Shown here: in pieces, positions 3,812 to 16,186 of the stretch
How the letters are laid out: every line of letters starts with the position of its first letter
Numbering within the stretch: the stretch's first letter is position 1
Origin: a virus
Direction: 5' to 3' (one strand)
IMG/VR virus record: IMGVR_UViG_3300027770_000212
Location: 1 to 27,225 of that record
DNA length: 27,225 bases
The notes under the pieces: model-generated
Told to the model about the DNA's origin: nothing
Seen by the model: the letters and a program-made list of their open reading frames with translations, nothing else
Databases searched by the model: none
Program-made: the position numbers and the translations under genes

Positions 3812-4195
3812 TTAGTGCCCGAGTACCTTAAAGAATGAGGTTATGAACGAGAATCCATAACCGAGTACAGTGCCACCCCCAACGGCCATCCATATGTATT
3901 TTTGGATGACGTTTATCTTTTCGTTTAAACACGCATAGTGTTTGTTCTGCTCTTCGCGAACAGCTTTTATTTCGTCTAGAATTGCTTTGTCTTGAGTACG
4001 TATCGTATCATAAACATCTTTCAACTTTTGATCCAATTCCTCACGACGCTTTTCTAACTTGGTTTCAATAACCTCAGCTTGTTTTTCATGCTGAGATAAG
4101 CGATTCTCTTGTACCGCAATCATAGCCTTCAAATCACCGGAAATTTCGGTAAGCCTTTCAATAGCTGATTCTATTCTATCTAGTGTATCAACCAT
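3812..4195 (-). CDS. Conserved coiled-coil protein with C-terminal membrane segment, DUF7201-like
   Basis: 127 residues. Residues about 5-100 form an almost unbroken amphipathic helix with the signature LTEISGDLKAMIAVQENRL and EKRREELD; residues about 100-120 (WMAVGGGTVLGYGFSFITSFF) form one membrane segment. This arrangement of cytoplasmic coiled coil plus C-terminal anchor resembles hemolysin XhlA-type phage proteins. The LTEIS signature matches a conserved cyanophage/T4-like family that I believe is DUF7201. A part in lysis or membrane association is possible because holin-like accessory proteins look similar, but this is not shown by the sequence. Its start overlaps the preceding stop by one base. 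Confidence 0.77.
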   Translation of the reverse strand: MVDTLDRIESAIERLTEISGDLKAMIAVQENRLSQHEKQAEVIETKLEKRREELDQKLKDVYDTIRTQDKAILDEIKAVREEQNKHYACLNEKINVIQKYIWMAVGGGTVLGYGFSFITSFFKVLGH

Positions 4196-4638
4196 TAATA
4201 GACCTTTAAATAATCGTTAACACTCTTGTGAATTTTATAAGGCAATGATATAGCAAGAGCAGCAGCTAGATTATGAGGTTCTACTTTCTGTTCTATAAGA
4301 TTCGCGCACTCAATAGCAACTAGATCTATTTCATTATTCATTATAAACGAAGCGAAGCGCGGATGGTTTCTGTTACCGAATTCCCATGCCAACGCTTCTG
4401 CTCGTTCACCTATCAATGATCTTACTTCATCACGCTTACTATGATCTACAGTGACAGTATGATAAGAATCTGTGCCGTATATAGAATGGCATAATCCTGC
4501 GAGCACAACATCATTAGAGCATTCCCAGTCCATAAGTAAACTTGCTGTGCCTGTCAGATGCTCTAATAGACTATGTCCACTATGATCGTTATCATCTACA
4601 CCATTATCTAAAAGAAACTCAATCACATTATGTATCAT
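4195..4638 (-). CDS. HD-like metal-dependent hydrolase, DUF6817-like
   Basis: 147 residues. The N-terminal half has HSGHSLLEHLTGTASLL...WECSNDVVLAGLCHSIYGT, with a spaced series of His residues and the LAGLCHSIYGT block typical of the HD-like family I know as DUF6817. Histidines at about 19, 22 and 27 and the one in CHSIYG are candidates for metal ligands. HD-domain proteins hydrolyse phosphate esters such as nucleotides or signalling nucleotides; the substrate here is unknown. It lies between structural genes and the coiled-coil membrane protein, translationally coupled to both, so expression is expected late. Confidence 0.72.
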   Translation of the reverse strand: MIHNVIEFLLDNGVDDNDHSGHSLLEHLTGTASLLMDWECSNDVVLAGLCHSIYGTDSYHTVTVDHSKRDEVRSLIGERAEALAWEFGNRNHPRFASFIMNNEIDLVAIECANLIEQKVEPHNLAAALAISLPYKIHKSVNDYLKVY

Positions 4639-5018
4639 TAAAATGTACTCAGCGCCACTCGTTTGATTGTTGTTGCATTAACTGCAATATAAAGATAAGT
4701 GTTAGTGAATCTCATTTGACCAACACTCATTCCAACAGTAGTAGCATTGTTTGATGCAGGAGTAGTACCAAACGTGATGTTGAATGTGTTGACAGTCGTA
4801 GATTTTGTAACCACGACATTAGAAGCAAACAATGCTCTGTTACCAGTAACAGTCGTATTCGCTTTGAATACTGTGTTAGAGTTAACTGTACCGAATAGCG
4901 CCTTTGTCGTGATTTTCTTTGATGTAGGAGTTCCGTTAGGATCCGTAACGATCATCAGCAGATCTGGAGCCGCAGCCGTAGTCGCTGATGGTAGTTGTGA
5001 TACTTTCTTGTCAGCCAT
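4638..5018 (-). CDS. Probable virion structural (fibre-like) protein
   Basis: 126 residues, rich in Thr, Asn, Val and Ala, with no cysteine. The N-terminal block ADKKVSQLPSATTAAAPDLLMIVTD followed by KKITTKALFG is the type of start seen in many phage fibre and head-decoration proteins, where it forms an attachment unit. The rest is repetitive beta-strand sequence ending in a typical fibre-like strand (RFTNTYLYIAVNATTIKRVAL). The next gene upstream encodes another beta-rich protein, and the two probably work together on the virion surface. GGAG precedes the ATG. No catalytic signature is visible. Confidence 0.68.
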   Translation of the reverse strand: MADKKVSQLPSATTAAAPDLLMIVTDPNGTPTSKKITTKALFGTVNSNTVFKANTTVTGNRALFASNVVVTKSTTVNTFNITFGTTPASNNATTVGMSVGQMRFTNTYLYIAVNATTIKRVALSTF

Positions 5019-5038
5019 TTACTGCGACTCCAATTCTA

Positions 5039-5788
5039 TTAAACGCCCTTAGGTGAAACCTGGAAGTTTGTGATACGAATACCATTGAAACGAGATAGAT
5101 TGTTAGCAACAGCACCAGTAATAACAAGGTTCGCAGCAGCAGTAATACCAATTTCAGGATTGTAAAGTGGATTACCACCACCTGTTACCGAGATAGACTG
5201 AGCATTGATATGATATGTAGCTTTTGCTGAACCAGATCCACCCTGCAACTTAGGCATTGTGAATACCATTACGTTATTAGCAACGTTCGCGCGAGCGGCA
5301 GTCGCAACTGCAATACGAGCAACGCCGTTGTTTCCACCTACAGTGTTAGCAATGCTGATAGACATAAGATTGCCCGAAGGACGCTTATGAACTGGTGAAT
5401 TGAACACAACATATAGATTACTGCTTACGTTTGCAGAGATAACTCCGTTAGCATTTAGCTTAACGAAAACTTCTACGATATCCGCATTACCTAGATATGT
5501 GTTTGATGTGTAGTAAAAACCGTACCCAGGAGCAGCAGCAACTAGAACTTCGTCGAACTGACGATTTACTGTTGGTGTTTCTGAATTCGTACGATTGGAG
5601 CGACGAACCCAACCCTTAGTGGTTGCAATTACGTTGCGCTTATTAGCCTGTCCTCCTCCAGCATCGTCAAATGAGTGAGCAACACCAGATGATTGTGGAA
5701 GTGGACGATATCCTTTTAGAATACCTGCTACTGTGTTTGCACCAGATGCTACTTGTGTGCTTTCTCTACTGAATCCCCAAAGTGCCAT
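5039..5788 (-). CDS. Probable virion structural protein, beta-rich
   Basis: 249 residues from MALWGFSRESTQ. This start is preferred because AGGA lies about 9 nt upstream; an in-frame ATG at 5833 would add 15 very basic residues but has no ribosome site. The protein is rich in Ala, Asn, Gly, Val and Thr with alternating beta-strand patterns, no membrane segment and no cysteine. The C-terminal segment (LSRFNGIRITNFQVSPKGV) is typical of surface jelly-roll or fibre subunits. It follows a late-type promoter (5847-5854) and precedes the fibre-like gene by 20 nt. A head or tail decoration protein is the best guess; I recognise no specific family. Confidence 0.65.
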   Translation of the reverse strand: MALWGFSRESTQVASGANTVAGILKGYRPLPQSSGVAHSFDDAGGGQANKRNVIATTKGWVRRSNRTNSETPTVNRQFDEVLVAAAPGYGFYYTSNTYLGNADIVEVFVKLNANGVISANVSSNLYVVFNSPVHKRPSGNLMSISIANTVGGNNGVARIAVATAARANVANNVMVFTMPKLQGGSGSAKATYHINAQSISVTGGGNPLYNPEIGITAAANLVITGAVANNLSRFNGIRITNFQVSPKGV

Positions 5789-5846
5789 TTGTCTTTTCCT
5801 TTCCGCTTTTCGTTGAATACGACTACTCGGCATAATATAAGTCTAT

Positions 5847-5854
5847 TATTTAGT
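5847..5854 (-). promoter_or_regulatory. Late promoter variant ACTAAATA
   Basis: The minus-strand octamer ACTAAATA differs at two positions from the T4 late consensus TATAAATA and keeps the core TAAATA. It lies just after the stop of the 565-residue protein gene and 58 nt before the start of the beta-rich structural gene. The same octamer occurs before the RlpA-like gene at 16721-16728. Confidence 0.5.
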
Positions 5855-5856
5855 TA

Positions 5857-7554
5857 TTAGTCTTCTTTGTTTTTATCGCGATCAGTGCGATAAGCATTCA
5901 TTTTCGCAGATTTCTTGGCTTGTGCCATTCCTACTGCGTATGGATTATCTACTCCAGCGCGATGCTTGATTAGAGACTTAGCAATTTCATGCCCCTTAGT
6001 AATCACTTTCTTAGGAAGTTCGGCTGCTTCGCGCATAGGTGGGTTCATAGTAATTGGTTCATTACCACCCTTCATAGCTTTATCTTTTTCACCATGCATC
6101 TCACAAGTCATGCTTTTGCCTTTGCCTTCCTGACAAGTGCACTTATCGTTGCTCGCATGAATATTAGACAAACGCTTATTAGCCTTAGCTTGCATTACAT
6201 TCATTTGCTTAGAAGCAATTTTCTGTTGGAGCTGAGTTTTGAACGCATCTTTCTTAGCTGCGATTTGATTAGACACTGCATCATTAGCTTCGTGCTGGAT
6301 GGCAGTAGTTGCTCTAACTTTCTTGTATTTGATACTGCCGTCAGGCATACGAACCTTGATCATATGCACATCGGCGCGGCGCTGAACTTCGGTTACAAAT
6401 CCTGGATCAGTTTCTTCTTTCATAGCTTTTTCTTTCTTTTCCTGTGACATACCCTTATCACGGAACTTATTAGCCATTCCAGCATACTTCTTGAAGATAG
6501 GACCAGAACGACCCTGAACATCACCCATAGCTCTCTTAGCAGCTTTCTTAGCTGCGCTATGATATGTGTCAGTTGAAAGTTCGTCTACCTGCTCAACGTC
6601 TTCACTCACTTTTTTTCTTGTTATCTTATTCATAAGACGCTTTGCACCAATGGTTCTGTTAGCAATATCATTAGCCTGCTTGACATCATTAGGATCAGAG
6701 TTCTTGATAGATTTCTTAGCCTTCATAAGATACGCAAACTTCTTGATGTTTGTATCAAGAACCTCGTCTACCTGCTCAACATCTTCACCAACTGTTTTCT
6801 TATAAGCAGCGTCTTTAGCATTTGCGTCAGTAGTGCCTACTTTTGCTTTTAGACGTTTATGTTCTGGATTAGTTTTATCAAGAGCAAGCTTTTGTCCTGC
6901 GCTTCTTTTCATAAAGGTGTCATGACCAGCTGAACCTTTTGCTGCGGCAGTATCCATTGACTTGAGCGCACCCTTAGCATAATTCACTGCTAGTTTTGTA
7001 GAGATTTCGTCAATCTGTTCTGCTTCTTCTTTTAAACCTTTGGCACGTCTATTGACATAATGATCATGTCCTGGTGTACCTGGTTTACCATGACCATGAC
7101 GCCAAGCCATTGATCTTAGATCTGCATCAGAGTGATTTTTATGCGAATCAGCAAATTGTTTATCAGTCATATTAGCACGGTTCTGCTTGCTTTTAATAAC
7201 AGATGCAGGCATACCGGCTTCGTCTACCTGAACTTCTTCGAACTGCTGACGATCGTTACCAGACATCTTTTCGCGTCCGCGAATCTTATCAGCAACCGAT
7301 GGATTAATTCTGGTTAGATACTGAGAATCTTTGTTCTTAGCACCAACAGCAGCAACAGCAGCGTTTTTCTTTTCCTTATTCATAGGATTGCCTTCAGCAA
7401 CTGTTTCTTCCTTACGAAACATCTTGAAGTCTTGACCATCAATCTTGCCGTTGTGATTCTTGTCGAGCTTGACCTGACCACCTTTGAGTGCTTCGTTTAC
7501 CGCATTGATTAGCGAATCGCTAATACCAAATGCCTTTTTATCAATAGATGACAT
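5857..7554 (-). CDS. Large basic modular protein with four V/I-D-E repeats and an EF-hand; possible prohead polyprotein
   Basis: 565 residues, very rich in Lys and Ala. Residues 31-42 (DKNHNGKIDGQD) form a good EF-hand calcium loop. Four short acidic motifs recur: EEVQVDE (106-112), EEAEQIDE (176-183) and EDVEQVDE (257-264 and 318-325), spaced 61-81 residues apart and separated by basic, helical segments. Each ends in V/I-D-E, similar to the I/L-x-E sites cut by the T4 prohead protease gp21. A Cys/His group (C472, C474, C484, H487) near the C-terminus could bind zinc. It lies among late virion genes. I infer that it is incorporated in the prohead and may be cut into DNA-binding internal peptides; this is not established. 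Confidence 0.75.
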   Translation of the reverse strand: MSSIDKKAFGISDSLINAVNEALKGGQVKLDKNHNGKIDGQDFKMFRKEETVAEGNPMNKEKKNAAVAAVGAKNKDSQYLTRINPSVADKIRGREKMSGNDRQQFEEVQVDEAGMPASVIKSKQNRANMTDKQFADSHKNHSDADLRSMAWRHGHGKPGTPGHDHYVNRRAKGLKEEAEQIDEISTKLAVNYAKGALKSMDTAAAKGSAGHDTFMKRSAGQKLALDKTNPEHKRLKAKVGTTDANAKDAAYKKTVGEDVEQVDEVLDTNIKKFAYLMKAKKSIKNSDPNDVKQANDIANRTIGAKRLMNKITRKKVSEDVEQVDELSTDTYHSAAKKAAKRAMGDVQGRSGPIFKKYAGMANKFRDKGMSQEKKEKAMKEETDPGFVTEVQRRADVHMIKVRMPDGSIKYKKVRATTAIQHEANDAVSNQIAAKKDAFKTQLQQKIASKQMNVMQAKANKRLSNIHASNDKCTCQEGKGKSMTCEMHGEKDKAMKGGNEPITMNPPMREAAELPKKVITKGHEIAKSLIKHRAGVDNPYAVGMAQAKKSAKMNAYRTDRDKNKED

Positions 7555-7555
7555 T

Positions 7556-7798
7556 TTAGTTACCCTTTCTTGTGGTCATGTAGTCGTGGACTGTTGTTAC
7601 ATAATCTTCTGCCATTGTAATCTTGCTCTGTACCCAAGCTTCTAGCTGTGTATCATCATTCATCATTTCAGCAAGAGCAGCGGCGCGCTTTGTAATCATC
7701 TGTAGCTGCGCTCGAGCCATCTGACCTTCGTAGTCCTTTTCTTTTTCTTCAGATACTGTTCCGAAACGAATTGTGTTTTCTAAACTACGATAAGTCAT
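7556..7798 (-). CDS. Small conserved helical phage protein
   Basis: 80 residues. The pattern DYEGQMARAQLQMITKRAAALAEMM.DDTQLEAWVQSKITMAEDYVTTVHDYM is one I remember as a free-standing protein and as a module inside larger proteins of T4-like phages. It would fold as a short helical bundle. The function is unknown; the conserved WVQSK and DY residues suggest a binding interface. AAGGAA precedes the ATG. It sits between the Dps-like gene and the modular polyprotein gene, with only a few bases on either side, so all three are probably made together. Confidence 0.78.
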   Translation of the reverse strand: MTYRSLENTIRFGTVSEEKEKDYEGQMARAQLQMITKRAAALAEMMNDDTQLEAWVQSKITMAEDYVTTVHDYMTTRKGN

Positions 7799-7800
7799 TG

Positions 7801-8241
7801 TTATTCCTTAGTGAATGAACGGAGCATCCATCCGTGCTTTTCGTGGGCGGTGATACGATCTTGTATAGCATTAGAAATACCAAACTTACTCTGAGCTTCT
7901 GCAATACGATATGCTTCGTTGAGTACAATAAGAAGACGCTGATTATCACCATTGAGTCTAGCTATCATAACTAAAGCCTTAGGAACAGATAGCTCGTCTT
8001 CGATAGTTGATAGCTCTTTGAATCGTGTCAGTGATCCAGGAGCATATGCTTGAAGAGTACGAATCAGTTCTGCTATAGTATCTACGGCAATAAAAACTTC
8101 GTTGTAGAGATTACTCAAAAAATCATGATACTGCGCGAAGTCTGGTCCTTCTACGTTCCAGTGAAAATTGTGCGCCTTTAGATAAAACGCAAAACTAGTC
8201 GCTTGAGCTTTCTTGAGTGCTTCTACGAGCTCTTCGTTCAT
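7801..8241 (-). CDS. Dps/ferritin-like protein
   Basis: 146 residues of a four-helix ferritin-like fold. KAHNFHWNVEGPDFAQYHDFLSNLYNEVF..VDTIAELI matches Dps proteins, which form hollow 12-mers, bind DNA and oxidise iron. Placed against E. coli Dps without gaps, ferroxidase ligands are kept at His27, His39, Asp54 and Glu58, but the position of Asp67 is Ser43. Iron oxidation may therefore be weakened or altered. The start overlaps the previous stop (ATGA). It lies in the late cassette with probable internal-head proteins, so it could bind DNA in the virion or protect DNA from oxidative damage in the infected cell; the sequence does not decide this. Confidence 0.85.
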   Translation of the reverse strand: MNEELVEALKKAQATSFAFYLKAHNFHWNVEGPDFAQYHDFLSNLYNEVFIAVDTIAELIRTLQAYAPGSLTRFKELSTIEDELSVPKALVMIARLNGDNQRLLIVLNEAYRIAEAQSKFGISNAIQDRITAHEKHGWMLRSFTKE

Positions 8242-8660
8242 TTCTTCGTTACTTTCTTAGCTGGAACTTTCGACTTAGGTGCGGCAGCAGGAATGAAAGT
8301 CTTTTCTTTCTTAGCAGCTGGTTTCTTTGCCTTTGGAGCTTCAATCTTAACTGGTTCAACAGTAGCCACTACTTCTTTAATCGCTTCTGTAATAGGAGTA
8401 TTGGTTTTAGCAGCTTCTTCCATCACCTTAACAAAAATTTCTTCTGTTTTAGCATCGATATTAGTTTTGACTTCTTCTTGCGCCTTATCAACAACTGGTT
8501 CTAGTGATGCAACTGGAGCTGGCTTAATTTCAGCAACAGGAGCTGGTTCCGGAACAGGATCTAGCTTTGGTTCTTCTATTTTTTGCTTAGGCCAAAAATA
8601 CCATCCAATACCAAAAACAACAACAACAAAAGCAATAATAGTAATCAGTTCATCATTCAT
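8238..8660 (-). CDS. Membrane-anchored Pro/Ala/Lys-rich protein
   Basis: 140 residues with one N-terminal membrane segment (about residues 6-23, ITIIAFVVVVFGIGWYFW). It continues with a Pro/Glu/Ala/Val-rich stretch (PVPEPAPVAEIKPAPV) and ends in a histone H1-like tail rich in Ala, Lys and Pro (KAKKPAAKKEK and PAKKVTKK). The layout resembles TonB or other envelope-spanning proteins, or a membrane-tethered DNA-binding tail; neither is proven. AGGAG precedes the ATG, and the stop overlaps the Dps-like start (ATGA). It is conserved in position only as far as I can tell. Function unknown. Confidence 0.68.
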   Translation of the reverse strand: MNDELITIIAFVVVVFGIGWYFWPKQKIEEPKLDPVPEPAPVAEIKPAPVASLEPVVDKAQEEVKTNIDAKTEEIFVKVMEEAAKTNTPITEAIKEVVATVEPVKIEAPKAKKPAAKKEKTFIPAAAPKSKVPAKKVTKK

Positions 8661-8673
8661 TACTCAGTTCTCC

Positions 8674-11600
8674 TTAACAATCCCACGCTTTGCGTGACCA
8701 ATAGTTTGCGCTCGACTTATTGCTTAAATTGCCTTGACCGCTAGAGCGAGCACAATATGATCTCTTACGAGCAGGCTGATCTTTCTTTATACTTAATATC
8801 TTATCACCGAAGTTGACTTTTTTCGCTTTGCCATCACCATCAGGATCAACGTAAACCTTTGACTTCTTTACGTCACCCGCCATAGGCTTATTCAAAGAAA
8901 CTGTCTTACCTTTATATGTAGCTTCTTTAACGATCTTACCCTGACCTGGCGTAGCATCAGCATAGTTCTGTACTATAGCGTCGGTTCCTACAAAACGATT
9001 CTTAGGATCATTCTTATCCTTTGAGGCTGGTTCAGAACCAGTGTATGATTCATCAGCTTTCACAATCGACTTATTCTTTTTGTAATAGTCAGCGAGTTTC
9101 TTCAGACCATTAGTTCCCTTAGCGCCTTCTGTTCCTTCTTTAACAGTTGACTTTTTCTTAGAAGCTAATGCTGGATGATTAAGCCAAGCACCACCACGAT
9201 GACCCCACTTATCAATCATCTTATTAATGAATTTTGGATCTTTAGAAGCTTTTACAGCAGCGCTATCTTTTATCCAATCTGCGTTTGATGTTCCTTCGTA
9301 TTGAGTTTCTTCCTTAGGAACGCAGTTAGGAACCTTACGACCATTCTTCATCTTCATACCTACAGCTGTGTAACCAGACCAGCAAGCACTTTTAAGTCCG
9401 CCTGTTGGTTCTTTTACCTCTTTCATAGACTTAACGTGTTTTCTGACTTGCTTATTGATTTGAATAGGATGCTGTCCAGTTTTCTTTGATAGCATATTCA
9501 CATGTGACTTATAACGACTAGCAGTCTGTGGAGTACCTCCACCAGTCACAAAATCCTTATAACGCTTTGCTAGGTCAGCCACATCTTCAATCAAATCGCC
9601 GTCTATCTCGGCAGCTTTGCCACCAGCAATGAATGAGTTCACGCGATTGAACGCTTCGTTGACATTATTGTTCACTTCTAATCCGCGAGTGAACACTTCG
9701 TAGATGATTTCTACAGGAACACCAGAATCTGTTGCTTTACGGAGAAGTGCATTAGCTTCTTTATTGACTACATTGTAGCGCACGCGCGAGTACGTCGCAG
9801 GATCCTTAGTTGTCAAGTCGATAAGCTTATCAAGAAGATTAGCTAGAGCTTCGCGCATCTGTGGGCTTTGTAGCGCATGTTTCTTACTTGAACGCAAAGC
9901 ACGACGATACTTCTGTAGTTCTTCTTCGTCAGACAAACCCAAACGCAATAGCAAATCTAGTTTCTGACTTAGCGGGCGCGACTTATTAGGATCAGTTGGA
10001 CGATCTTCATCCTTAGCAACTTCACCTACGTTACGAACGCCAGGAGGCTCATCCTTATCATATGGAGACACTGTACGAGTACGACCAACGCCTAGATAAA
10101 ACTCGTTGAACTGCTTCCCACCAAGACTAATCTTTGGCTTATCCTTAGGAATACCATGAGCCATCACATCACGAAATGACTGTAAGCTTTTGCCAGCAGC
10201 AATAGTAAACTTATGCTTATCAACTGGCATACGCAAAGCTTCGAACTTAGCAAGCAGTTTCTTAGCATCACTTACTGAGATATGTGCTTTATGCTTATCA
10301 GCGAAAACAGTTTCGTGTTCGCCGCGAGAGTTGATAGTCTTGCGCATCTGATAGATAATGTTCGTATCACCAGCATCACGAGCGTCCTTATCTATAGCAG
10401 ACTTACGTCCTTCATCAACAGAACGCGCATAATGCATCAGTTTCCTATTTTGATGTAGATGACCTGTTGTTGGGTTGGGAGCAGAGCGATCGTTTCCTTG
10501 AGGATCAATCTTAAGATTATCCAGCTTCGTGGGATCAATATTCAGCGGAGAATCGTGCGCCGTATCAGCCTTTGACTTTTCCCAGTCTGAAACTGAAATG
10601 CCACGTTTCTTAGCTTGCTTGATATCGGTTTTTACGTCAGAAGCAGTTCCTTCTTTACTTTTCTTATCTTCGTAAATAAACGCAACGAAGTTTTCGTTCG
10701 TATCACGGGCTTTTGCTACGTTAGCTTGTGCTTTCTTACGGATCATGGGCATGATTCTCTTTGATAGTTTGTCTACAGCAGAATTGAGTGACTTACCGAA
10801 ACGATTAACAAGCGCGTTATCAACTGCAATTCTCTGTGACTTTGAAAGTGAACTGTATTGTAAATCTTTCTTACCTGTTGCGCGCTTACGCAGCATCATG
10901 ATAGCCGCCTTACGAGCGCGCATACGTAGACGCTGTTGAGCAGGCATAGTCTTAGCTTTGATTTGACGAAGACGAGCAAGACGCTTAGACATTCCCTTCA
11001 TGCGCTGCGCTAGTTTCTGACGAGTCTGTATAGAAAGCACTTTAGCTTCTGCTACAGATTCTTTTTCAACATCCTGACCTACGATAACATCTAACATAAG
11101 AACGTCAGAGTCATCTAGGTCTAATTCGTCGTCAGACATAGCATCAATTTGCTTAATCATTTCGGCATCAGAAGGCATCGTAATAGTTTGCTGATCGTCA
11201 GACTCGGTGATGTAATACGAAAACACTTCGTCGAGTGTTGATTCTTTGAGAGCTCCTAAACGTGACTGTATCAAGTGCATTATCTCCCTTACATCAGCGT
11301 CTGATAAGTGTTTCGACATAGAAGCACGAACCTTATCGAAATCTCCTGCTCTTGCCCAATTACGAATATCAGAAGCATGAACGCCATCTGCATCACCCGT
11401 ACGAGTGTCTGTGATAGAATGACGCGAATGAACTTCTATCTTATCGAACGTAAAATCTTTTCCGTTATACTTATCTACGACCGTCTTAATGCCTGCTGAT
11501 TCGGCTGCACCTAGAACGATATGGACTGTGTCGTACTTGCCTGTTAATGCAGATAATGCGCCAATGATGGTTGGATTATTAGCAGGAGGTTCTTGAAACA

Positions 11601-11814
11601 GACCTCTATGTCCAGGAAACATCTTGTTCAGATACTTAATCTTTTCGAAAGCAGTCAGTGGATTCTTTTTCTTATCGACTGTGCGTGAAACGAATATCTT
11701 AGCGTCACTATGTGTTTGCTTAGCCAGTTTCAGAACAGCATCAACTAGATTCTTATGCTCTTCGTGTGGAGGATTAAATCTACCAAGCGGAACGATAACA
11801 ACAGACTTATTCAT
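8674..11814 (-). CDS. Giant mosaic protein with N-terminal HIGH-type nucleotidyltransferase domain
   Basis: 1046 residues from MNKSVVIVPLGRF. This start has AGGAG 6 nt upstream, whereas the longer frame opens at 11862 without one. Residues 1-180 form a cytidylyltransferase/NadM-like domain: GRFNPPHEEH (residues 11-20, the H-x-G-H site with Glu for Gly), SRTVDKKKNPL, and ASDIR (147-151) in the place of the ISSTxxR motif. Such enzymes transfer a nucleotide to a phosphate, for example NMN to NAD. The remainder is a chain of short basic modules: an Arg/Lys-rich helical region (260-370), VGMKMKNGRKVPNCVPKEE (818-836), a DPDGDG calcium-like loop (990-995) and a Cys-flanked end (CARSSGQG...YWSRKAWDC). 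I remember similar modules from other T4-like phage proteins. Probably a virion or injected protein. Confidence 0.8.
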   Translation of the reverse strand: MNKSVVIVPLGRFNPPHEEHKNLVDAVLKLAKQTHSDAKIFVSRTVDKKKNPLTAFEKIKYLNKMFPGHRGLFQEPPANNPTIIGALSALTGKYDTVHIVLGAAESAGIKTVVDKYNGKDFTFDKIEVHSRHSITDTRTGDADGVHASDIRNWARAGDFDKVRASMSKHLSDADVREIMHLIQSRLGALKESTLDEVFSYYITESDDQQTITMPSDAEMIKQIDAMSDDELDLDDSDVLMLDVIVGQDVEKESVAEAKVLSIQTRQKLAQRMKGMSKRLARLRQIKAKTMPAQQRLRMRARKAAIMMLRKRATGKKDLQYSSLSKSQRIAVDNALVNRFGKSLNSAVDKLSKRIMPMIRKKAQANVAKARDTNENFVAFIYEDKKSKEGTASDVKTDIKQAKKRGISVSDWEKSKADTAHDSPLNIDPTKLDNLKIDPQGNDRSAPNPTTGHLHQNRKLMHYARSVDEGRKSAIDKDARDAGDTNIIYQMRKTINSRGEHETVFADKHKAHISVSDAKKLLAKFEALRMPVDKHKFTIAAGKSLQSFRDVMAHGIPKDKPKISLGGKQFNEFYLGVGRTRTVSPYDKDEPPGVRNVGEVAKDEDRPTDPNKSRPLSQKLDLLLRLGLSDEEELQKYRRALRSSKKHALQSPQMREALANLLDKLIDLTTKDPATYSRVRYNVVNKEANALLRKATDSGVPVEIIYEVFTRGLEVNNNVNEAFNRVNSFIAGGKAAEIDGDLIEDVADLAKRYKDFVTGGGTPQTASRYKSHVNMLSKKTGQHPIQINKQVRKHVKSMKEVKEPTGGLKSACWSGYTAVGMKMKNGRKVPNCVPKEETQYEGTSNADWIKDSAAVKASKDPKFINKMIDKWGHRGGAWLNHPALASKKKSTVKEGTEGAKGTNGLKKLADYYKKNKSIVKADESYTGSEPASKDKNDPKNRFVGTDAIVQNYADATPGQGKIVKEATYKGKTVSLNKPMAGDVKKSKVYVDPDGDGKAKKVNFGDKILSIKKDQPARKRSYCARSSGQGNLSNKSSANYWSRKAWDC

Positions 11815-12988
11815 CTTTCGCTCCTGCTTTTCTGTATGCACCAGCAGCAAAGTTTTGTGCACTGAACACGCGACGCTTGACTAATTTAGCTGTACCGTGT
11901 TTTCCAAGTAACACATACCCCTCAGGATTCGTTCTTACTAGACCACCGAACTCATTTTCGAAATATCTACGAATAGGCTGATACTTATCCAGCTCGTCGA
12001 TGATCTTATCTTTCATATCAGCGATTTCTGTATGAACTTCGAGTATAGCAGCAATTCCGCTGGCGTTCTGCTTGATGCTAGCAATCGTGTCATCGAGCGT
12101 CTGTTGCTTAGCAGCTTTAGCCTTATCGCTCTTGACTTTATCTACTTCTTTCTGCAACTTATCATTCATAAACTTGACGAATCCGTTGTACGTCTGATTA
12201 GTATTGTTACGAATGACGTCATTAGCATACTGTAGGAACCATTTGCTCATTTCTGGTGAAGAAACATACGCAAGTCCATCTTTAGGAAGTGATGAAAGCA
12301 TAGTTGAGATTTCGTCGATATATCCCTGGATATGACCTACTCCACTTAGCATAGGAGCGTCGATAGGCATAATGAATACATGAGCGTTCTTCTTGATATC
12401 GCGAGCCTGTATGGTCACTCGACTGCCCGCTGCATTGTACTTGGTGTGAGGCGCGAAACCAACAGTAGCACGACCGATAAGCTTACCCAAGTCCGAATCG
12501 ACTGCAACAGCATTTGTTACTGTGTTAGGCTTAAACAACCAGTGCAACACACTGTCAATCTTAACCTTACGCAAATCCGACTTAGCGAACATCATATCGC
12601 CCTGTAAGATTTCGTTACGATTGTTAGTGATTAGTGGGAGAAATTCCAGAGCGAGCTTTAGTTTAGCTACGAGCCCAGGCGCATGACCGTGATTACGGTC
12701 GATATCGTCGACCGAGTAGTTAATCTTAGGGTCTTTGTTGAAGATAGACTTAGTGGCTACGAAAAACTTACCATCGTTGTAGCCGTAGAATACGCTAGGA
12801 GCACCGTCAATCTTAGTCTGATTTACAGTTTCAGGAATGCCTTTGATAAGGTCATGGAAAAAACCATTGATCTTAGCGAAAGAACCTGCGCCCGAAACGT
12901 ACAGCTCATCTTCGATATGCGTGTAGTGAGATTTGTCTTCTTCCGCAGAAAACGCAGTTTCCACTACGAAACTCTTAAAGCTTTTCAT
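11807..12988 (-). CDS. Ligase-like nucleotidyltransferase with capsid-targeting N-terminus
   Basis: 393 residues from MKSFKSFVVE, with AGGAG 4 nt before this ATG; the longer frame to 13024 has no ribosome site. Motifs of the DNA/RNA ligase and capping superfamily appear in order: KIDG (59-62, lysine for covalent nucleotide), GKFFVATKSIF (73-83), EILQGDMMF (126-134), PEGYVL (355-360, motif IV) and AKLVKR (367-372, motif V). A Lys-rich helical insertion (about 275-340) widens the distance between the early motifs and motif IV. I believe related phage proteins are catalogued as DUF6267. The first ten residues resemble the capsid-targeting peptide of T4 internal proteins, with a prohead-protease-like end (FVVE). 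The substrate is unknown. It overlaps the next gene by 8 nt and follows a late promoter. Confidence 0.78.
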   Translation of the reverse strand: MKSFKSFVVETAFSAEEDKSHYTHIEDELYVSGAGSFAKINGFFHDLIKGIPETVNQTKIDGAPSVFYGYNDGKFFVATKSIFNKDPKINYSVDDIDRNHGHAPGLVAKLKLALEFLPLITNNRNEILQGDMMFAKSDLRKVKIDSVLHWLFKPNTVTNAVAVDSDLGKLIGRATVGFAPHTKYNAAGSRVTIQARDIKKNAHVFIMPIDAPMLSGVGHIQGYIDEISTMLSSLPKDGLAYVSSPEMSKWFLQYANDVIRNNTNQTYNGFVKFMNDKLQKEVDKVKSDKAKAAKQQTLDDTIASIKQNASGIAAILEVHTEIADMKDKIIDELDKYQPIRRYFENEFGGLVRTNPEGYVLLGKHGTAKLVKRRVFSAQNFAAGAYRKAGAKDE

Positions 12989-13064
12989 CACACTCCTAGC
13001 GGGACTGGCGTACCCTAACCGCAAATGATTTGAGAGCAGGATTGCCTTAGCTTTCTGCTCCCTT

Positions 13065-13072
13065 TATTTATA
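13065..13072 (-). promoter_or_regulatory. Late promoter TATAAATA for the ligase-like gene
   Basis: A perfect T4 late octamer on the minus strand, 76 nt before the ligase-like start. It should drive the long late transcript through the large virion-protein cassette. It sits next to the opposing early-type promoter at 13081-13109. Confidence 0.72.
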
Positions 13073-13080
13073 AAAACGTC

Positions 13081-13109
13081 TTGACAACACAAAGGTAACA
13101 TGATATAAT
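13081..13109 (+). promoter_or_regulatory. Plus-strand consensus sigma-70 promoter
   Basis: TTGACA (13081-13086), a 17-nt spacer and TATAAT (13104-13109) make a perfect promoter pointing right, against all genes in the window. Transcription would begin near 13116 and run antisense to the two genes at 13137-15006. The preceding 14 bases AAAAACGTCTTGAC also occur at the minus-strand uvsX promoter (20737-20750). No convincing plus-strand gene follows, so the product would be an antisense RNA. Confidence 0.62.
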
Positions 13110-13131
13110 ATGAGTGTTACGAAAGGGTCAA
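13102..13131 (-). promoter_or_regulatory. Weak opposing promoter
   Basis: TTGACC (13126-13131), an 18-nt spacer and TATATC (13102-13107) on the minus strand overlap the -10 region of the plus-strand promoter. An alternative -10, TATTAT (13105-13110), would give a 15-nt spacer. If used, it would exclude the plus-strand polymerase. The match is moderate and the call is tentative. Confidence 0.33.
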
Positions 13132-13136
13132 CTAGG

Positions 13137-13511
13137 TTATAGAGTTGTTACCGTACCATTCTCATCTGTTAATGTTACCGTCAATTGGAATGGTGCAACA
13201 AGACCCTGACTTACCTTTTCAGCACGAAGAGCCTTAACCGCCTGAGTTGCAGCACTATTAGCAGTATTACGTTTCGTATAGTAATCCATTGCGACTGCCG
13301 TATTAGCAAACGAAAGCTGCACGGTTCTGTGTACTGAATTCGCATATATGTTCTGACCGTAATATAAAGAAGATAGTGGTTCTAACACTTCTTTTCTAAA
13401 AGCAGAATACACGACAGCATCGTTTCCAGTCCAATCTGTTCCATCTGAAAATGGCAGATTAGAACTAGGTTCTAGTGAACTGATTTCATACTTTAGATAT
13501 ACTTTTGACAT
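13137..13511 (-). CDS. Small phage protein of unknown function
   Basis: 124 residues, soluble, without cysteine or membrane segment. It starts with a strand-like segment (VYLKYEISSLEPSS), has a central helix-rich part (AVAMDYYTKRNTANSAATQAVKALRAEKVSQG) and ends in strands (FQLTVTLTDENGTVTTL). I recognise no family. AAGGAA lies upstream of the ATG. It follows the nuclease-like gene after 13 nt and is the last gene before the promoter cluster at 13065-13131, whose plus-strand promoter would produce RNA antisense to it. A virion accessory role is possible from context only. Confidence 0.65.
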   Translation of the reverse strand: MSKVYLKYEISSLEPSSNLPFSDGTDWTGNDAVVYSAFRKEVLEPLSSLYYGQNIYANSVHRTVQLSFANTAVAMDYYTKRNTANSAATQAVKALRAEKVSQGLVAPFQLTVTLTDENGTVTTL

Positions 13512-13524
13512 ATCGGTTTCCTTA

Positions 13525-15006
13525 TTAATCCGGTCTTGACATCCACTTTCTAAGCACTATCCCAGATTCTATATAGTTTCTGAAGTTAGCCTGAATTCGT
13601 CTAGAAGAAAGGCTAGTTAATAACTCCCCTTTAAAATATATCTTTATTCCATGATTTTTACCAGTACCCAGATCTGTAGTTATTGCGCCTTTTTTTGAAA
13701 GATAAGGCACCAATTTAGCAACATCATATATGTTTGCTCCTTCACCTATATCTACTATACTTAGTCCGGGTCTAGATGGTAATTTATTTTTAGAACTAAC
13801 TTCGCTTATAGCTGGTAATCTACCCTGTTCTTCTTTGCTTGCAATACCATCCATGATACCAGATAATACTTTTCTTAGATTATTACCCTCAACTTCATCC
13901 TTTATTTTTTTGTACATTATAGTCATAACTTTATCCCATACACCCATTTCTTCAATTTTCACTGCGGTAACAGGTTTTTTTTTCAGTAAAAATTTTTCGG
14001 TCTTACCAGAACCATCGATGGTTAATCCGTTAGCAGCGAATATAGTTTCTATCTTGTTTTTGGTTTCAGAATCTAATTTAACGCCAACATATGACATAAA
14101 TTTAGCAATAGAAGTAAGATGAATATTACTAGCTTGACCGAATTGTTTCGTCCCTTTAATTTTCACTGATAACTCTAAATCAAATTTTGTTGGTTTACCA
14201 GAACCAGGAGTTCCCGTATAACCTTCTCTGTATCTTGTTACGATATCAGCTTTTCTACCTTCTGCTTGTCCGCTAATAGAAGTAGATTCGATTTCAATGA
14301 GGTCAACTTTACCATTATTATAAAAATACCAAGCATGAGCTTTTGGTTCTGCTTTGTTTACATAACTCGTAGAGTCTTTAAAGAAAGGACCTATGAGTGC
14401 GTCTCGAGAAAGATTGCCTTTTTTGTAAGCTTTTTCTAAATAAGCATAAGCACCTGTGTTCAGTGAAAGATATCCCACGACTTTATCTTTAAACGATTCT
14501 CCGTAATTGTCTGCGTCGAATCGCACAATTTTATTTATTTGTTTACTTTTTTTACTAGAATTCCATTTTTCTGTAGAATCAATATAAGCCCCCACATACT
14601 CTTCGACGTCTTTTACTGTTATATCGCTATTATTTTTTTTTCTCATCACAAATCGTGCAATAATAGCAGCCTGAAGTATCGTTTCTGCGATATAACCTAA
14701 CGGGATCTTTTCGCCTGGTTTTACAAGATATGCTACCGAATAGGTGTCGTTTCTAGCTTTAAATTTTATTAGGTTTAATTGTTCTTTAACAGTTTTAGCA
14801 TTTTCAAAAACAAGATCTTCTAATTTTTCTATTAGAGTATTTTTTTCTTTTTGTTCTATATCAAATGGATCAATGTAAGTTATGTCACCTGTAGTGCGAT
14901 TACTAACATAAGGAAATGGTTCGGTTTCGCGAAACAATGTTATGGCCATCGCCACATATTTTTGCAGCGATACTAAACTATCAGTTCTTATTATAGGTGT
15001 GGCCAT
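13525..15006 (-). CDS. Possible PD-(D/E)XK-type nuclease-like protein
   Basis: 493 residues. I see a pattern resembling the PD-(D/E)XK nuclease fold: a helix with Glu107 (GYIAETILQAAIIARF), then GRKADIV (Asp254), then FDLELSVKIKGTKQFGQ (275-291) with Glu278, Lys282/Lys284 and a Gln-rich end. Nucleases of this fold cut DNA using the Asp, Glu and Lys with a metal ion. The motif match is imperfect (ELSVK instead of ExK), so this is a hypothesis. The gene is visibly richer in A/T runs than its neighbours, suggesting an accessory gene gained from elsewhere. It lies 4 nt after the His-rich capsid-targeted protein gene. No strong ribosome site is seen. Confidence 0.7.
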   Translation of the reverse strand: MATPIIRTDSLVSLQKYVAMAITLFRETEPFPYVSNRTTGDITYIDPFDIEQKEKNTLIEKLEDLVFENAKTVKEQLNLIKFKARNDTYSVAYLVKPGEKIPLGYIAETILQAAIIARFVMRKKNNSDITVKDVEEYVGAYIDSTEKWNSSKKSKQINKIVRFDADNYGESFKDKVVGYLSLNTGAYAYLEKAYKKGNLSRDALIGPFFKDSTSYVNKAEPKAHAWYFYNNGKVDLIEIESTSISGQAEGRKADIVTRYREGYTGTPGSGKPTKFDLELSVKIKGTKQFGQASNIHLTSIAKFMSYVGVKLDSETKNKIETIFAANGLTIDGSGKTEKFLLKKKPVTAVKIEEMGVWDKVMTIMYKKIKDEVEGNNLRKVLSGIMDGIASKEEQGRLPAISEVSSKNKLPSRPGLSIVDIGEGANIYDVAKLVPYLSKKGAITTDLGTGKNHGIKIYFKGELLTSLSSRRIQANFRNYIESGIVLRKWMSRPD

Positions 15007-15010
15007 ATTA

Positions 15011-16186
15011 TCACTTCACAAAATGAGGTTGTTGGTTTTTTTCGCCTGCTACTTTTTTCTTTGTTGTCAACTTACCCGATTGATGCAAATCGTGAAATTC
15101 GGGATGGCTTTTCTGAACAAAATCCATAACCTTTTTCTTATGTTCTGGCGTAGAATTCGAAGTCTTATCGTTATGATAATCTACAATGTCTTTATGGTGC
15201 TGAGGTACGTTATGATATCTGTCTTTGATATAGGAATCGTAATCGTTACCATAATGTTTTATCGCGCCTTTTGTACCTGTGGGTGCGCTTATGCCTCCAG
15301 GAGGAATTTTACGGATTTCACCCGCGCGAATGAACCAACGATTGTGTTCTGGGCCAGCTGAGTGTTTAGTTTCAGAATCGTTGTTCACGACTACATGACT
15401 ATCTCTTTCGTGCTGTTTACCTATTTCTTTTTTATCTTTAGTGTATATCTTAGTAGATACTCCTGACGGATTTTGTTTTTCGCTAGGAAGATGTTTCTGT
15501 GAACTCCACAAAGCAACAAACTTGCCCATTGTTCCCACTTTAGACTTAGGGTCAACTTTTCTATTAATAGAACCATCATGATGAGGAACTTCATGAGTAG
15601 GATCTGGAGGTAAACCCTTAACTTCTCTTTGTTTTCTTTTGAATCCACTCTTAAACGCCTGGTCTTTTGGACTCATCACAAGAGGATGAGTTGGCGTATG
15701 CATATAGTATCCGTTCTTATGTAAATGCTTATGGAACTCTTTAGCTATCGTATGATGATCCCACGAAGATGGATGAAACTGTGATAACATCTTATGTGAA
15801 TCACCACCGAGCGTGTCTTGAGGTTCGTTCGGATTGTAAGGCTTACCTTCTACGATTATTTCTTTTTGTTCTCTGAGCTTAGGATTTATTTCGATAGGTT
15901 CTTTCCTCAAACCAATCTTAGGTTCAGCATTATTTGGATCCTGTTCGCTATCAGGTCCTGAATCATCTGGAGGTGTAGAATCATCTGTAGGTTTTTCGGG
16001 GCTATCTTTATCTTCTGTAGGATGATAGCTCTGCTCGTAATCGTCTGGTCGTTCAGATGAATCTGATTTCATAACGCGAATAACTCTATGCCCCTGTGGA
16101 GACATATACATTTCAACGTGATGACGAGTAGGGTCAGGATCCTCGCTCGTTTGTTGTTCGATTATGAATCTTTTGAAAGAAATCAT
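15011..16186 (-). CDS. His-rich protein with capsid-targeting N-terminus
   Basis: 391 residues. The start MISFKRFIIE resembles the capsid-targeting peptide of T4 internal head proteins and the start of the ligase-like protein at 12988; FIIE ends in the I-x-E pattern of gp21 sites, and IVE at 111-113 could be a second site. Residues about 45-90 are acidic and Pro/Asp-rich (a spacer or propeptide). The rest is basic and strikingly His-rich (for example nine His between 131 and 167). No known catalytic domain is recognised. First gene after a perfect late promoter (16220-16227), so it should be made late and possibly packaged with the DNA. AGG lies before the ATG. Confidence 0.72.
   Translation of the reverse strand: MISFKRFIIEQQTSEDPDPTRHHVEMYMSPQGHRVIRVMKSDSSERPDDYEQSYHPTEDKDSPEKPTDDSTPPDDSGPDSEQDPNNAEPKIGLRKEPIEINPKLREQKEIIVEGKPYNPNEPQDTLGGDSHKMLSQFHPSSWDHHTIAKEFHKHLHKNGYYMHTPTHPLVMSPKDQAFKSGFKRKQREVKGLPPDPTHEVPHHDGSINRKVDPKSKVGTMGKFVALWSSQKHLPSEKQNPSGVSTKIYTKDKKEIGKQHERDSHVVVNNDSETKHSAGPEHNRWFIRAGEIRKIPPGGISAPTGTKGAIKHYGNDYDSYIKDRYHNVPQHHKDIVDYHNDKTSNSTPEHKKKVMDFVQKSHPEFHDLHQSGKLTTKKKVAGEKNQQPHFVK

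Follow-up and report, generated by a model that had tools for sequence, protein, structure and literature searches.

T4-type capsid-targeting peptides predicted on a ligase-like and a His-rich protein of a virus fragment

In phage T4, Alt and the internal proteins IPI to IPIII carry a ten-residue N-terminal peptide, the capsid-targeting sequence (CTS), which has aromatic residues at positions 4 and 7, an aliphatic residue at position 8 and Glu at position 10. According to a review of the T4 head (PMC9026906), targeting of IPIII depends on residues 4 and 7, and its processing on residues 8 and 10. T4 cargo of this kind is an ADP-ribosyltransferase or small basic inhibitors. In cyanophages, nucleotidyltransferases (NTases) have been detected by mass spectrometry in purified virions of S-SM1 (T4-GC190; PMC3037559), S-SZBM1 (S-SZBM1_140; PMC9146016), S-CREM2 (gp154; PMC10665884) and S-SCSM1 (ORF91; PMC9602691). 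Here, we describe a 27,225-bp virus fragment, IMG/VR record IMGVR_UViG_3300027770_000212 (positions 1-27,225, the whole record; hereafter, the window), in which a ligase-like protein of the family DUF6267 and a His-rich protein start with peptides of the T4 type. Both proteins can be read, with good confidence, as head-internal cargo of an uncultured T4-like, Kyanoviridae-related phage. In contrast to the T4 cargo, cargo of the window type comprises ligase-like and NTase enzymes whose genes map between genes 41 and 61.

Two N-terminal peptides of the T4 type

On the minus strand, the ATG at 12988 opens MKSFKSFVVE followed by TAFSAEED, and the ATG at 16186 opens MISFKRFIIE followed by QQTSEDPD; the sequences downstream of the two peptides are unrelated. 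This is the pattern that an earlier note on this DNA had described, and it is confirmed at both genes. The open reading frame (ORF) of the 12988 gene is extendable to a TTG at 13024. Nevertheless, ATG 12988 is the likelier start, because an AGGAG sits directly upstream of it. In both peptides, F4, F7, V8 or I8, and E10 agree with the T4 CTS at all four positions that mutants have defined (PMC9026906). As judged from sequence, then, both are T4-type CTSs, and the likeness to the T4 peptide that had been noticed holds at all of these positions and recurs on several families of one neighbourhood.

The matches in the window are more than chance. The strict motif, which is the pattern of the earlier note, is found at 2 of the 966 ATGs of the window (all frames, both strands), each time at a gene start, while it is absent from the 98,203 ATGs obtained when the window was resampled 100 times under a first-order Markov model and from the 61,084 ATGs across all retrieved loci read backwards. 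A search of the genome for further proteins with the peptide had also been proposed, and in relatives such a search did recover them. A four-position rule, built solely from the positions 4, 7, 8 and 10 defined by T4 mutagenesis, was scanned over nine phage genomes, where it matches 22 gene starts among 2,102 genes, compared with 3 of 7,072 internal Met (Fisher p about 8e-12); 16 of the 22 fall between genes 41 and 61, the seat of the window cassette. In T4, taken as a positive control, the rule recovers ipII, ipIII and gene 61.1, and the reversed pattern has no match. Gene 61.1 (NC_000866 18966-19130, minus strand; L112) starts with MKTFKEFIKE and lies between genes 61 and 41, syntenic with the window cassette, although its product, of 54 amino acids, has no enzyme domain, unlike the enzymes of the cassette.

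From Hsp20 through endolysin, DNA polymerase, UvsX and gp41-type helicase to the cassette and a primase, the window has the gene order of marine T4-like phages, and the order polymerase-UvsX-gp41-cassette is annotated likewise in S-SM1, Syn9, S-PM2, Syn1 and P-TIM40. Among IMG/VR loci sampled irrespective of the motif, the four-position rule is passed by 30 of the 47 unique N-termini of DUF6267 (17 of 28, about 60%, after collapsing similar ones). Around DUF6267, CTSs are also found on NTases, on a PNKP-like HAD phosphatase (phrog_415, with PF25109 below cut-off and no match in a sequence search of the PDB), on DUF6321 basic proteins and on several orphans. Both in the gene starts of relatives and in an AlphaFold2 model, the peptide is a separable appendage on several unrelated cargos. 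A close homologue (L006) differs from the window in four CTS codons, every time at the third position, and more distant copies differ at first and second positions too. For the His-rich gene, 38 of the 46 differences to the copy in L014 are synonymous, showing that the gene is under purifying selection. A protease of the appropriate type is found in relatives: an S77 (gp21-type) prohead protease is encoded in 15 of 15 full-length or near-full-length phage records, including the closest near-complete relative (G001). This evidence comes from relatives, the 27-kb fragment stopping short of the protease region.

Apart from these genes, four cluster genes and DUF6267 in L071 (94-3881 and 4100-5296) start with CTSs of the MKSFK, MKSFV or MKTFK type, most of them without a known family. 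A similar small protein with a perfect CTS is encoded outside the cassette in S-SZBM1 (S-SZBM1_191, MKSFKSFLSE; L211) and in DSL-LC02 (155023-155358, MKSFNQFLSE).

Related proteins in cyanophage virions

Once translated, the virion NTases of cyanophages, which belong to the same locus or family as the window NTase, all start with a CTS: MKKFSAFLNE in SSM1_190, MRFRQFIIE in S-SZBM1_140, MKNFSSFLTE in S-CREM2 gp154 and MKSFLQFLKE in S-SCSM1_91. In the window, by contrast, it is the adjacent DUF6267 that bears the CTS, while the NTase has a CTS-like site only internally. Over the whole genome of S-CREM2, the strict rule selects three genes, for a SAM hydrolase, an APH-like kinase and the NTase. 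All three are positive by mass spectrometry, against a background of 49 of 219 ORFs (p 0.011). These S-CREM2 genes lie far from replication genes and encode mutually unrelated proteins, all of them virion proteins, and the neighbours gp7, gp8 Dam and gp11 nuclease are both undetected in the virion and devoid of a CTS. In the region 3837-12846 of S-CREM2 (L191:338-9347), CTS or CTS-like peptides are found at the N-termini of the virion proteins SAM hydrolase, APH-like kinase and a small neighbour; the virion Cas9 of this phage has a CTS-like LRFASFMAE near its N-terminus. S-PM2 encodes T4-GC190, which was not detected in its virion (PMC3037559), and has no CTS at its NTase/DUF6267 locus. S-SZBM1 is the one cyanophage that allowed carriage of DUF6267 to be checked; its virion list (PMC9146016) omits DUF6267, which in this phage adjoins the NTase and has no CTS.

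The virion carriage of NTases is already known and injection has been proposed (PMC3037559, PMC9602691), and in this respect the set of enzymes is not undescribed, as the earlier note had supposed. As far as searchable papers show, what is new is that the CTS is the probable cause of this carriage, that it occurs on families other than the NTase, DUF6267 among them, and that it has predictive value: none of these papers names the CTS as the cause of NTase carriage or a CTS-tagged ligase-like cargo, and the CTS is unmentioned in PMC3037559 and PMC10665884, both of which were checked. The inclusion of the HIGH-type NTase in the virion-delivered set fares similarly, in that CTS-bearing NTases do occur in published virion proteomes but that of the window has no CTS at its N-terminus.

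The ligase-like protein, the His-rich protein and their neighbours

The features of the locus are collected in Table 1. In the DUF6267 protein, the residues K59, D61, G62, E356, G357, V359, K368, V370 and R372 are invariant in 32 sequences and make up KxDG (motif I), EGxV (motif IV) and KxVxR (motif V). The same motifs are present in T4 Rnl1 and Rnl2, fungal Trl1 and Naegleria RNA ligases. An AlphaFold2 model of the protein has a predicted local distance difference test (pLDDT) score of 86, with residues 1-3 and 5-19 below 50 and residues 4-12 helical at low confidence. Its best structural matches are all RNA ligases, namely those of Naegleria (Z 8.5, root-mean-square deviation 3.7 Å, 186 aligned residues), Trl1 (Z 8.0), Rnl1 (Z 7.0) and Rnl2 (Z 6.9); the best Foldseek E value is 0.07, which is not significant alone. 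DUF6267 differs from these ligases in being only about 10-15% identical to them and in having an extra helical region (about residues 218-335), and its sequence profile retrieves chance helical matches and no ligase from the PDB. Because the Z score is moderate and the Foldseek result is not significant by itself, the assignment to the covalent nucleotidyltransferase (RNA/DNA ligase) superfamily draws jointly on the motifs and the predicted fold, which is also how the earlier description of the protein as ligase-like is upheld. From the motifs and model, adenylyltransferase chemistry is reasonably likely, while ligation of RNA or DNA is a more tentative prediction, with the balance tilted slightly against it.

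The DUF6267 family, which counts about 450-470 phage records, is mentioned in no searchable paper. Its PHROG_455 profile represents DUF6267 fused to a HIGH-type NTase. In L018 (3131-5640) and L046 (8000-11200), DUF6267 is interrupted at KxDG|SP by a split intein, whose N- and C-fragments flank a free-standing HNH-like endonuclease ORF. In general, inteins tend to occupy active sites.

For the His-rich protein, profile searches gave no Pfam or PHROG match, and tblastn gave none against 50,697 phage records. In a close relative (L014/L082), the cassette contains three genes with a CTS, which encode the HAD phosphatase, the same His-rich protein and DUF6267. The His-rich slot looks like an exchangeable cargo position, since in L016 it is occupied by another CTS protein, which has no Pfam family above its cut-off.

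Table 1. Features of the window. All lie on the minus strand; PSSM, position-specific scoring matrix.
Feature	Position	Strand	Basis
CTS of the DUF6267 ligase-like protein, MKSFKSFVVE, predicted cut after Glu10	12959..12988	-	Sequence; upstream AGGAG; conservation in homologues; low-confidence, separable N-terminus in AlphaFold2 model
CTS of the His-rich protein, MISFKRFIIE	16157..16186	-	Sequence; PSSM 16.9
DUF6267 / PHROG_455 ligase-like protein, 393 amino acids, predicted KxDG nucleotidyltransferase	11807..12988	-	PF19782 E 6e-70; phrog_455 E 6.5e-66; invariant motifs; fold
Motif I KIDG, Lys59 the predicted adenylated lysine	12803..12814	-	Invariant in 32/32 aligned sequences
His-rich putative cargo protein, 391 amino acids, 7.9% His, 11.8% Lys, no known family	15011..16186	-	No Pfam/PHROG match; two IMG/VR relatives
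HIGH-type NTase (NMNAT/cytidylyltransferase-like) with long C-terminal tail, 1046 amino acids, start adjoining the DUF6267 stop	8674..11814	-	phrog_3041 E 7e-41; similarity to virion proteins
Internal CTS-like site DEVFSYYITE, NTase residues 195-204, end of NTase domain	11203..11232	-	PSSM 14.9, within the range of N-terminal CTSs; putative function
Possible PD-(D/E)XK-like nuclease, 493 amino acids, without CTS here	13525..15006	-	Invariant K252-A-D254, E261, S280, K282
Neighbour of 124 amino acids, function unassigned, without CTS	13137..13511	-	Sequence
Dps-like ferritin-fold protein, without CTS	7801..8241	-	PF00210 E 2.5e-18; phrog_3636

The NTase of the window has a HIGH-like motif (GRFNPPHEEH) and scores 16.3 bits with Pfam CTP_transf_like, below the 21-bit cut-off; a sequence search of the PDB with the S-SM1 NTase gave no match. 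Its residues 1-195 are 35% identical to the virion protein SSM1_190 of S-SM1, and segments of its tail match the virion protein S-SZBM1_139 and a CTS protein of C48C1. L002 and L003 share the strong internal CTS-like site, which is lost in the L007/L009 group. The NTase may reach the head through this site or as a partner of DUF6267, and a polyprotein reading of the 1046-residue product is, on sequence, a lead only. In L066 (11223-12065) and L042 (10698-11555), an ATG lies in frame within the NTase ORF, preceded by a good ribosome-binding site and followed by a CTS and a basic tail of the DUF6321 type. With such a site in front of it, the equivalent Met may mark an internal start of translation and not a point of cleavage, and two products are possibly made from one frame.

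The earlier note had placed the nuclease-like and Dps-like genes in the virion-delivered set. In the window, both are free of a CTS, like the gene for the 124-residue protein, and their place in the set is not supported. For the nuclease-like protein, the best nuclease match in a fold search is Dna2, at a weak Z of 4.4.

A possible route into the head and its alternatives

By analogy with T4, Phe4 and Phe7 of the ten-residue peptide would anchor the two proteins in the prohead core, a gp21-type S77 protease would then cut after Glu10, and the freed proteins would stay in the head next to the DNA and exit with it at infection. Packaging is highly probable for DUF6267 and somewhat less so, though still probable, for the His-rich protein; for both, cleavage after the CTS is likely, and ejection with the DNA is favoured a little less strongly. 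DUF6267 would act as a covalent nucleotidyltransferase of the RNA-ligase type, adenylated at Lys59, and may work together with the HIGH-type NTase next to it, whose counterparts in cultured relatives are virion proteins with a CTS of their own. Most likely, the targets of these enzymes would be nucleic acid, whether host or incoming, or NAD or nucleotide cofactors, on which they would act before phage genes are expressed, for instance by repairing RNA or DNA cut by defence nucleases or by restoring NAD.

Several observations weigh against this proposal. S-SZBM1_191 has a perfect CTS yet is absent from the 30 proteins detected in S-SZBM1. Conversely, S-SCSM1_89, 90 and 92 and S-SZBM1_139 are virion proteins of the locus without a CTS, and thus the CTS is not the sole packaging route; in addition, some of the S-SCSM1 signal is possibly co-purified protein, according to its authors (PMC9602691). 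Syn1, MED4-213, P-SSM2 and S-PM2 have DUF6267 but no CTS at the locus, so that packaging cannot be taken as a constant trait of this family. The published virion proteomes are from phages other than that of the window, none of which has a CTS-bearing DUF6267. Finally, the case for the His-rich protein is made by its CTS and location, and the ligase fold reaches a Z of only 8.5 without a sequence match to ligases in the PDB.

Among other explanations, the one that survives best, although fairly improbable, is that only the NTase is functional virion cargo, DUF6267 of the window being carried merely as a partner or being catalytically idle. It would account for the cultured cyanophages Syn9, S-SM1, DSL-LC02 and P-TIM40, in which the CTS is on the NTase and absent from DUF6267, and it agrees with the fusion of the two proteins in phrog_455 and in existing fusion genes. 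Nevertheless, the catalytic motifs of DUF6267 are all invariant, the split intein lies exactly in its KxDG motif, as expected of an active site, and both proteins bear a CTS in several phages (L034, L046, L074, L075 and L080).

It is unlikely that the enzymes are packaged but serve within the head, in DNA condensation, end protection or repair of packaged DNA, instead of in the next host. With their many charged residues, the His-rich cargo and that with DUF6321 tails could bind DNA, and T4 internal proteins partly affect head assembly (PMC9026906). However, the capsid would offer little substrate to enzymes that use ATP or NAD, and in T4, Alt and the internal proteins are ejected from the head and function inside the cell (PMC9026906, PMC9391042).

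Less likely still is that the peptide is an uncut N-terminal helix that docks to another phage complex, such as the replisome or the prohead scaffold, in which case the proteins would act late and only contaminate virions. The position of the cassette among replication genes (polymerase, UvsX, gp41 and primase) and the low-confidence helix of the model are compatible with such a role. By contrast, positions 8 and 10, which T4 uses for cleavage and not for targeting, are among those conserved, the same peptide is found on true T4 internal proteins, and the unrelated CTS genes of S-CREM2 encode virion proteins at a distance from replication genes. That both matches are ordinary starts that resemble a CTS by coincidence is very improbable, for, short as the motif is and near-orphan as one of the genes is, the resampled ATGs contain no strict match, the same peptide is on unrelated families at the same locus, and it is associated with detection by mass spectrometry in S-CREM2.

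A broader proposal, rather unlikely at present, is that aquatic T4-like phages inject a pre-made repair kit for nucleic acids and cofactors under one exchangeable ten-residue signal. This kit would consist of the RNA-ligase-like DUF6267, the NMNAT-like NTase and the PNKP-like phosphatase, sometimes with a SAM hydrolase, a kinase and Cas9, as in S-CREM2, and, if it exists, would disarm host defence ahead of any phage transcription. More generally, the non-structural proteins that these abundant aquatic phages package in their heads appear to be predictable from the four-position N-terminal rule, and most such proteins are without a known role. With this rule, many hypothetical genes would be narrowed down to a few candidates for injected effectors, and the function of the widespread DUF6267 family becomes directly testable.

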